This document shows, one piece after another, positions 25,284-30,130 of a stretch of DNA of 64,000 nucleotides; the stretch's first letter is position 1, and every line of letters starts with the position of its first letter. The DNA lies in assembly GCA_035295165.1 (NCBI GenBank), contig DATGJN010000073.1, positions 1 to 64,000 on the forward strand, written 5' to 3'. The notes below the pieces were generated by a model that was not told where the DNA came from, did no database searches, and saw nothing but the letters and a program-made list of their open reading frames with translations. The position numbers and the translations under genes were made by a program. The DNA is from a bacterium (GTDB lineage Bacteria; Sysuimicrobiota; Sysuimicrobiia; Sysuimicrobiales; Segetimicrobiaceae).

Positions 25284-25384
25284 CGGGGCTTCCGAACGGG
25301 CAAACCCGTCGCGAGGCGGGGACGCAAAGCCACGGGACTTCTAGCGAAGTCGGCCGGGCTGCCGAAGAGCCGGAACCAGCCCCG
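25284..25384 (+). promoter_or_regulatory. c-di-GMP-I (GEMM-I) riboswitch aptamer
   Basis: The strand matches the GEMM-I consensus in order: GGGCAAACC at 25298-25306, a hairpin closed by a GCGA loop, GGGACGCAAAGCC at 25319-25331, a second variable stem, then GGCCGGGCTGCCG at 25352-25364. P1 pairs 25284-25294 with 25371-25374 and 25378-25384. The base equivalent to Vc2 G20 is G, as in c-di-GMP-selective rather than cGAMP-selective members. It lies just upstream of the CAP-domain gene. Confidence 0.93.
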
Positions 25385-25417
25385 AATGGAGGTACATCAT
25401 CATTCGCGGCTGGTTCC
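25372..25417 (+). promoter_or_regulatory. Riboswitch expression platform, start-site hairpin
   Basis: GGAACCAGCC (25372-25381) is the exact complement of GGCTGGTTCC (25408-25417). One mismatch inward, CGAATG (25383-25388) pairs with CATTCG (25401-25406). This 16-bp hairpin puts the Shine-Dalgarno GGAGGT (25388-25393) mostly in the 12-base loop and the ATT start (25402) in the stem. Its left arm is also the 3' strand of aptamer P1, so the two structures exclude each other. There is no T-tract, so control is most likely translational, with ligand favouring expression. Confidence 0.8.
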
Positions 25418-26007
25418 TGATTGCGTGCGCGTTGTCGGCACTGCTTGCGTGGTCGACGCCACTCGCCTTCAAGACCTCGCGTGCACGGGTCCCGCTGGCA
25501 CTCGGAACGACGGAGCCCGTCGCGTACGCGCTGCCGTATCACCTCGAAGCCGTGCCGGCCCGCCCGGATCTCGCGACGACGGTGCTCAACCTCCTCAACG
25601 AGACGCGCGTCGCCGCGGGACTCGCGCCGCTGATGCCTCATGAGACCCTGCAGCGAATCGCGCGCGCGTACGGCCGGGAACTGTTCGCCCGCGGCACCCT
25701 GTCGCACGTTTCACCCGATGGGAAGACGCCGCGGGACCGCGTCGTCGGCGCTGGTATCCAGGTCCGCGTGGTCGGGGAAAACCTCGCGTACGCCGACGAC
25801 GTGACCGAGGCCCACGATGCGCTCATGGCGAGCGCGCCCCACCGGTCGAACATCCTCTACCCGGGGTACCGCCTCGTTGGGATCGCCGTGCTCGACGGCG
25901 GCTCCGATGGCGTAATCGTCGTCGAGGACTTCACCGACGACAGCGTGTCCTACCCGTTGGCCAAGTGGTGGAACAGCCCGGCGACCGCCTCGACGCCACG
26001 CCGCTGA
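25402..26007 (+). CDS. Secreted CAP/SCP-domain protein
   Basis: The CAP domain runs from about residue 50 (LLNETRVAAGLAPLMPHETL) through ELFARGTLSHVSPDGKTPRD, the conserved GENLAY and APHRSNILYPGYRLVGIAVL. These are hallmarks of bacterial SCP/PR1-like exported proteins of unclear activity. The frame holds no ATG, GTG or TTG at the right place. ATT 25402 lies eight bases after GGAGGT and yields a complete signal peptide (RGWFLIACALSALLAWSTPL); the first conventional start, TTG 25432, would cut it in half. Expression is governed by the c-di-GMP riboswitch upstream. It converges with the NTP_transf_5 gene four bases away. Confidence 0.85.
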   Translation: MRGWFLIACALSALLAWSTPLAFKTSRARVPLALGTTEPVAYALPYHLEAVPARPDLATTVLNLLNETRVAAGLAPLMPHETLQRIARAYGRELFARGTLSHVSPDGKTPRDRVVGAGIQVRVVGENLAYADDVTEAHDALMASAPHRSNILYPGYRLVGIAVLDGGSDGVIVVEDFTDDSVSYPLAKWWNSPATASTPRR

Positions 26008-28676: not shown

Positions 28677-28923
28677 CGGTGCCGCCCCACCGGCCCGCTG
28701 GGGTCACCGAATGACCGGTGCGGCGACAATCGAATGATACCAAGCGGCGCCGGTCTCGGCCGATTGATCGACGGGATGATCGGAAGTGTCAAACAGATAG
28801 AGACAACCTGATCCTTTGGGTGATCGGGACGCCGGCCGTCCTAGGATACAATTGCTCCACCGCAGCCGGGCGGGACCCCACGCGGCACGAGCGCGTGGGA
28901 GGGCGATGGCGGGAGACCAGAAC
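28677..28923. promoter_or_regulatory. Divergent promoter region
   Basis: This spacer separates the leftward ABC operon from the rightward sortase operon. On + a TACAAT (28847-28852) about 72 bases before ATG 28924 may be a -10, with only a weak -35. On - a consensus TTGACA (28792-28787) is present, but the -10 candidates at 17-18 bases match only three of six positions. No riboswitch or operator is recognised. Confidence 0.35.
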
Positions 28924-29544
28924 ATGTTCGGTTTTCGTGGCGGGGTAACGGTGCAACCGATCCCATTCGATCTCGGGGTCATGACGTCGTTTTCGCCCGC
29001 ACCCCCCGGCCCGCCGCCACCGTCCGGTGGCGGTGGCGGTGGGGGCGGCGGCGGTACTGGCGGTGGTGGTGGCGGCGGTGGCGGTGGCGGTGGTAATGGT
29101 GGTGGTGGTGGCGGCGGTGGCGCTGGTTGGCTCGCGCTCGGGCTGTTACCGCTCCTGTTTGGAATTCCGCTGTTGGCGCACGCCCCTCAGCCAACGGCTC
29201 CGGTCGCCGCGGTCGTTGCGCCGGTAGTGACGAGCGGCACGACCGGGGCGACAGACGGTGCATCAACCACGACGACTACGCCGCCTACGGGGACAGCCCC
29301 GGTGGTACTCGCTCAGGGCCCGCGGACGGTCGCGCCCCCGCACAGGCCGGTGGCCGCGGTCGCTGGCCCGATGACTCACGGCGGCCACGTGTTGCCGTTT
29401 ACAGGGGCGAACCTGTGGCTTCCGTTTATGGCCGGCGCGCTCTTGATCTGGACCGGTGTCTGCCTGCGGTTCCTCCGGAAGCGCGTCCTCGGACCGGGTG
29501 CGGTCGCGCCCGACGATGACTCGCAGTCGCCGCTTCCAAGCTAG
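28924..29544 (+). CDS. Poly-glycine LPFTG sortase substrate
   Basis: The 206-residue protein starts at ATG 28924, with GGGAG eight bases upstream. Residues 35-66 are almost pure glycine (10 Gly, Thr, 12 Gly, Asn, 8 Gly). A hydrophobic segment (69-87, WLALGLLPLLFGIPLLAHA) ends in an A-H-A signal-peptidase-like site. A Thr/Pro/Ala-rich stalk follows, then LPFTG (157-161), a membrane helix (WLPFMAGALLIWTGVCL) and the basic RFLRKR, the classic cell-wall sorting signal. The glycine block therefore lies before the export segment. The sortase gene overlaps its last 29 bases. The mature role is unknown; a surface anchor is inferred. Confidence 0.8.
   Translation: MFGFRGGVTVQPIPFDLGVMTSFSPAPPGPPPPSGGGGGGGGGGTGGGGGGGGGGGGNGGGGGGGGAGWLALGLLPLLFGIPLLAHAPQPTAPVAAVVAPVVTSGTTGATDGASTTTTTPPTGTAPVVLAQGPRTVAPPHRPVAAVAGPMTHGGHVLPFTGANLWLPFMAGALLIWTGVCLRFLRKRVLGPGAVAPDDDSQSPLPS
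29026..29121 (+). repeat. GGN codon run encoding poly-glycine
   Basis: Thirty of 32 consecutive codons are GGN (mostly GGT and GGC, mixed), interrupted only by ACT and AAT. The mixed third bases suggest selection on the protein and not simple slippage alone, although length variation between strains is likely. Confidence 0.9.
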
Positions 29545-30130
29545 CCTCCTCGGCGTCCTCTCCGTCGCCTGTGTGCTCGCAGGCATTACCCTTGTTTTCT
29601 TGCCCGGCGTCTGGACGGTCACGACGGGGTTGGGGGCCGGGAGCGCTCAGATCAACGCCCTCGCCGCATGGGACAAGGACACCGGGACTGAGCGCACGTC
29701 TCCGGCGGACGCGCTCGTGATCAGCATCCCGCGCCTCGGTGTGCGGCGGTACGTGCCTGATGGGGCGACGCCAGACCATCTGCGCCGCTATGGCGTGGGC
29801 CGGATTTCCTGGACGGGGTGGCCCGATCGCCCGGGTCTCGTGGGCATCGCGGGACACCGCACCACGTACGGCGCTCCATTCTTCTGGATCAACAGGCTGC
29901 AGCCTGGAGACTCGATCGAACTCGACTACCACGGTCGGCGTTACGCGTACCACGTGGTCCGGCAGGAGACTGTCACGCCCGACCGGGCGGATGTGCTCGA
30001 CCCCGACATGCTTCAGCACCAGGTTGCGCTCGTGTCGTGCACGCCGTGGTACAGCGCCGCATATCGCCTCGTGGTGTTCGCGGACCTCGCCGACGTCACG
30101 GCCCTTGCTCCTGCCCATGCCGGGCGGTGA
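29516..30130 (+). CDS. Class E/D-like sortase
   Basis: A 204-residue transpeptidase with an N-terminal membrane anchor (residues 9-31) and the sortase catalytic triad: His114 in GIAGHRTTYG, Cys175 in VALVSCTPW and Arg184 in YRLVVFAD. Sortases cut LPxTG-type signals between T and G and join the protein to a cell-surface nucleophile. ATG 29516 lies inside the end of the LPFTG gene, so substrate and enzyme are coupled in translation. The PqqD-like gene overlaps its end by 14 bases. It is probably dedicated to the neighbouring substrate, as I saw no other sorting signal in the window. Confidence 0.9.
   Translation: MTRSRRFQASLLGVLSVACVLAGITLVFLPGVWTVTTGLGAGSAQINALAAWDKDTGTERTSPADALVISIPRLGVRRYVPDGATPDHLRRYGVGRISWTGWPDRPGLVGIAGHRTTYGAPFFWINRLQPGDSIELDYHGRRYAYHVVRQETVTPDRADVLDPDMLQHQVALVSCTPWYSAAYRLVVFADLADVTALAPAHAGR

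Follow-up and report, generated by a model that had tools for sequence, protein, structure and literature searches.

We propose that, in the 64,000-nt window (the whole stretch of DNA analysed; contig C73 of a metagenome-assembled genome of 4.8 Mb, 121 contigs and 98% completeness), a c-di-GMP-I riboswitch acts at the level of translation on a gene for a secreted CAP protein. In this reading, a hairpin sequesters the Shine-Dalgarno (SD) sequence and the start, initiation occurs at a non-canonical codon, and switching is kinetic and in the OFF direction; we consider the combination about evenly poised between holding and failing. Judged by sequence comparison, the structure itself is real and conserved, and the type of start is unusual yet has precedents. 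A more tentative suggestion, which we rate below even, is that the gene is gated doubly: c-di-GMP would act via the hairpin, and initiation factor 3 (IF3) via an AUU (or AUC/GUC) start that is specific to the genus, lies in or at the stem and replaced the ATG of relatives. If true, second-messenger sensing and start-codon discrimination would be joined on one mRNA, and the relatives with ATG offer a ready-made comparison. Gene callers limited to ATG, GTG and TTG would place the start at TTG 25432 and miss the signal peptide. The features discussed below are as follows.

25285–25294, forward strand: 5′ strand of an alternative helix, here called helix B, pairing with 25371–25383 (folds)
25287–25294, forward strand: 5′ strand of P1 (RF03167 alignment and folds)
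25289–25367, forward strand: c-di-GMP-I (GEMM-I) aptamer (RF01051 and RF03167 covariance matches; kept in both sister species, L036 and L037)
25363–25371, forward strand: 3′ strand of P1, stopping one base short of the hairpin (RF03167 alignment and folds)
25371–25383, forward strand: 3′ strand of helix B (folds)
25372–25388, forward strand: 5′ arm of the sequestering hairpin (folding, conservation and covariation)
25388–25392, forward strand: SD sequence GGAGG (sequence; kept in L036 and L037)
25399–25401, forward strand: ATC, rival start, 6 nt after GGAGG; GTC in L036 and L037, equivalent to ATG in G011
25401–25417, forward strand: 3′ arm of the sequestering hairpin, overlapping the first CAP codons (folding, conservation and covariation)
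25402–25404, forward strand: ATT, most likely start, 9 nt after GGAGG, kept in three species
25402–26007, forward strand: CAP-domain (SCP/PR-1-like) protein with an N-terminal signal peptide, 201 aa from ATT (PF00188)

Aptamer, hairpin and genomic setting

The original prediction of a complete GEMM-I aptamer was borne out by the covariance models. RF01051 matched at 25289–25366 with 68.2 bits, well above its gathering threshold of 35, and RF03167, the c-di-GMP-I-GGC variant, matched at 25290–25367 with 67.1 bits, passing its cut-off of 59. The base that tells this variant from ordinary GEMM-I was of the ordinary type in the alignment (GCAAAGCC): the leader reads GCAAAGC, with an A in place of the defining G of the consensus GCGAAgC, and the aptamer was therefore treated as ordinary c-di-GMP-I. 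The ligand-contact bases of the c-di-GMP type were present in the RF03167 alignment (GGGCAAACC, CGCAAAGCC and GCUGCCG), and we take them to be G20, A47 and C92 in Vc2 numbering. An A at position 20 is the mark of cGAMP binders (PMC6456294). By its sequence, the element at 25289–25367 is a c-di-GMP-I riboswitch sensor and a predicted c-di-GMP binder. P1, whose exact outer pairs we infer, was drawn with C25293–G25364 and G25294–C25363, a 2-nt bulge, and then 25287–25292 with 25367–25371.

The genome of the window (G000) contained ten c-di-GMP-I aptamer matches, nine of them above the cut-off, and 27 GGDEF matches. Three GEMM-I aptamers (L001–L003) lay within 1.3 kb on another contig (C57, 3992–5316); one stood upstream of another CAP gene, whose SD lies in P1, and the other two were followed by terminator-like hairpins. 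Further along the window, a frame for a glycine-rich repetitive protein and then a sortase-domain gene (PF04203) were found at 28816–30127.

Orthologues of the CAP protein were found in two sister species of the same genus, with 72% identity in G005 (L036) and 68% in G004 (L037), both represented by assemblies from Centralia soil that are filed as Bacillota. Gene order was the same in the window and both sisters: a histidine kinase, a LuxR-type regulator, the riboswitch with the CAP gene, and an NTP_transf_5 gene. The contigs of L036 and L037 both start in the aptamer; the first 103 bases of each (1–103) recur unchanged at the end of the contig upstream, and the upstream part of these loci was recovered through that overlap. 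The two species do not differ from each other over this stretch, which has probably tangled the assembly graph.

The predicted 16-bp hairpin (25372–25388 with 25401–25417) was likewise recovered. It consists of 16 pairs with one C·C mismatch (25382/25407) and reached −29.8 kcal/mol, with z = −4.7 against shuffled sequences, none of which equalled it. The placement of GGAGGT in its loop held for most of the SD but not for all of it, since the first G of GGAGG is paired and the remaining bases lie in the 12-nt loop; ATT 25402–25404 lies within the 3′ arm. The hairpin core, GGAGG and ATT were identical in the window, L036 and L037, while some of the three outermost pairs were missing in the sister species. 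In two other genera, represented by G011 (L018) and G003 (L015), the CAP gene also followed a GEMM-I aptamer and a hairpin, and started with ATG. In a hand-made structural alignment that leaves out one unpaired G of G003, 11 (G011) and 12 (G003) of the 12 lower-stem positions paired; at three and five of them, respectively, both bases differ from those of the window. Pairing has thus been kept through compensatory changes, indicating that the hairpin is a structure under selection and not a chance fold. A conserved hairpin covering both SD and start, as seen here, is what marks a translational sequestering platform. Read as an intrinsic terminator, the hairpin was rejected because no U-tract follows it on the 3′ side (UUCCUGAUUGCG).

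A probable non-canonical start

The CAP frame (PF00188, E = 4.5e-14) is open from 25345, and its first ATG, GTG or TTG is TTG 25432. No canonical start was present near the SD in the window, L036 or L037, so that a conserved SD stands without a canonical start in range in three species. Comparative sequence evidence therefore suggests that the CAP gene starts at a non-canonical codon of the AUH/GUC kind, a state kept in all three. That the ATG was lost by pseudogenisation or misread is very improbable: the window does come from a metagenome-assembled genome, and relatives beyond the genus do carry ATG, but the same state recurs in three species and dN/dS of the CAP part was only about 0.14–0.18 (dN 0.134/dS 0.95, 0.153/0.93 and 0.038/0.21). 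Values so far below 1 argue for a live gene that must be translated, and the reading was largely refuted. The original prediction had itself named homologues with an ATG at this place as a sign of sequencing error; the sister species lack it, which makes such an error unlikely.

The in-frame near-cognate codons by the SD are ATC 25396, ATC 25399 and ATT 25402. GGAGG and ATT are separated by nine bases, which read TACATCATC, AGTACCGTC and ACTGCCGTC in the window and its sisters; 5–6 of the 9 differ between the sisters and the window, as does much of the signal-peptide code, and ATT is the only near-cognate codon common to all three. An Arg-bearing signal peptide requires a start at or upstream of ATT. 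On these comparisons, AUU 25402 is most likely the start, ahead of AUC/GUC 25399. This preference is to be read with the stem in mind, as the three species have the same sequence in the arm that contains ATT, so that conservation of this codon is confounded with pairing; the sisters, sharing 103 identical bases, are also not independent of each other. The spacing of 9 nt between GGAGG and AUU falls at the long end of the sibling leaders (4–10 nt, mostly 5–8). A survey of GGAGG spacing across the window gave no usable peak, and spacing was therefore judged from the sibling leaders alone.

The original prediction of an ATT start inside the stem thus stood as regards a non-canonical start, now seen in three species, whereas the codon itself may be the one at 25399. 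G011 reads GGAGG-6 nt-ATG-TAT-CGG-GGC where the window reads GGAGG-6 nt-ATC-ATT-CGC-GGC, and the shared SD spacing and the following Arg-Gly codons identify 25399 as the position of the ATG by descent. Initiation could accordingly have remained there, at AUC or, in the sisters, GUC, with ATT as the second codon. Besides the G011 alignment, a spacing of 6 nt is typical of sibling leaders, U and C at 25400–25401 are kept in three species, infC in this lineage has an ATC start, and GTC is the proven, IF3-repressed start of Streptomyces sigR (PMC5472188). Nevertheless, the codon varies between ATC and GTC, GTC is two changes away from ATG, and ATT does not vary among the three species; we regard this alternative as a serious one, though less likely than not.

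It is considerably less probable that translation begins at TTG 25432, outside the hairpin, with the SD and hairpin as decoys. Although this is the first canonical in-frame start, and TTGs are also present 3′ of ATT in L036 and L037, the three lie at non-homologous codons (+10, +5 and +4 from ATT), all without an SD. From TTG, the window product would have no charged n-region and only a minor part of its hydrophobic core (mean KD 1.23 vs 2.62), giving no Arg-bearing signal peptide, and the conserved GGAGG would be left without a start. A start at ATG 25386, which opens an 85-aa frame in a different register, was rejected as well: this codon abuts the SD, lacks a separate one and would require a frameshift, and the homologous ATG in relatives opens an unrelated hydrophilic frame.

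As a positive control, infC was inspected across the family. In 10 of the 10 family genomes in which it was found (L116–L125), ATC stood at the conserved place after the SD with no canonical start between, which shows, at the level of sequence, that the lineage uses non-canonical starts in a gene where they are expected. Two studies describe AUU, AUC and AUA starts as a known trait of infC (PMC5472188, PMC13009471), and the latter reports about 10% of AUG output for non-canonical AUU and AUA starts in S. aureus reporters. We also read by eye 55 distinct aptamers retrieved by regular expression from loci of the family. The clear cases combining a strong SD, a long frame and no nearby canonical start were the leaders of this genus; no rate is claimed, as the expression misses some aptamers and another listing has over 90. 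In G006 (L017, C24 1378–1440), a GEMM-I CAP orthologue has a frame without ATG, GTG or TTG near the SD and might be a further case; an ATC and an ATG lie close by, both out of frame, and either an indel or one more unusual start could account for this. Inspection of a different family of the order (e.g., L096) revealed the same CAP gene with ATG behind an aptamer and an apparent terminator hairpin, implying that one platform has replaced another during evolution.

Direction of the switch

The hairpin had been expected to compete with P1, so that ligand binding would free the start and c-di-GMP would turn the gene on. Neither expectation was supported by the folds. P1 ends at 25371 and the hairpin starts at 25372; the two adjoin and coexist, and in equilibrium folds of the window the stem had p = 0.999 whether or not the P1 core was enforced. 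With P1 enforced, the stem remained at 0.95–0.999 in G000, G005, G004 and G011 and was 0.44 in G003. Equilibrium folds with and without P1 enforced revealed no ligand-dependent exchange of structures. Since the hairpin wins either way by nearest-neighbour energies, a switch would have to work kinetically or with assistance.

Helix B could provide such a route. In the folds it is mutually exclusive with both P1 and the lower hairpin, and a similar pairing appeared in G011 when the 3′ arm of the hairpin was held unpaired. In the full leader, enforcing helix B gave −62.3 against a free minimum of −78.4, or 16 kcal/mol worse, whereas helix B was dominant in nascent transcripts with 3′ ends from 25383 to about 25410. 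Because helix B uses the 5′ strand of P1, a ligand-stabilised P1 would favour the hairpin, that is, OFF. By inspection, the sibling CAP leaders of the family, L003 of this genome among them, carry an SD that is complementary to the 5′ strand of P1, as in an OFF switch.

The opposite direction is rather improbable in our estimation. It would have c-di-GMP lock a P1 extended through 25378–25383 and thereby break the hairpin. When the P1 core was held in place, the outer half of helix B (25285–25290 with 25378–25383) could still form, and was indeed favoured, in nascent RNA to about 25400; in the terminator-type GEMM-I leaders of this genome (L001, L002 and L004), P1 by inspection overlaps with the terminator, as in an ON switch; and the drop of the stem in G003 points the same way. 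Against it, P1 with the hairpin was 16 kcal/mol better in the full leader than the P1 core with the outer helix, and the stem persisted under an enforced P1 in the other four genomes. From these models, we lean somewhat towards OFF, and give a switch that works in the OFF direction or kinetically at least the probability of one that turns the gene on.

Under the OFF reading, SD and start would sit apically in a very stable hairpin adjoining P1. With ligand bound, the P1 5′ strand would pair with the P1 3′ strand, the full hairpin would form and expression would be off; with no ligand, the P1 5′ strand would pair during transcription with the 5′ arm of the hairpin, delaying the hairpin and leaving the gene on. 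In this genus, where the ATG of relatives is gone, initiation would most likely occur at AUU 25402, or else at AUC/GUC 25399. Such a poor start codon may cap output and make it sensitive to IF3, as in infC, with the hairpin adding structural repression.

Comparison with known systems

In the literature searched, which covered few subscription journals, we found no riboswitch-controlled gene with an AUU, AUC or AUA start. The aptamer core is shared with Vc2 of Vibrio cholerae and the RF01051 family; Vc2 has been described as a translational OFF switch (PMC9262584). Here, in contrast, SD and non-canonical start are placed in a single hairpin adjoining P1. Cd1 of Clostridioides difficile resembles the proposed mechanism in that an alternative helix competes kinetically with a stabler downstream hairpin (PMC9262584), but Cd1 controls transcription, whereas the present leader has no U-tract and its alternative helix takes the P1 5′ strand. 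A conserved non-canonical start with a strong SD is also known, from the available text of PMC13009471, in infC and pcnB (AUU/AUC/AUA) and in cvfC1 (AUU) and ccpN (AUA) of S. aureus; that text describes no aptamer upstream of them. In Streptomyces sigR, the conserved rare GTC start likewise serves as a regulatory brake through IF3 (PMC5472188), although no riboswitch is described there and the product is a sigma factor instead of a secreted protein. Related layouts are those of the sibling CAP leaders L003, L027 and L032 of the same family, in which GEMM-I aptamers also precede CAP genes with a translation-level arrangement; their SD, however, lies in the P1 3′ strand, and their starts are ATG or GTG.
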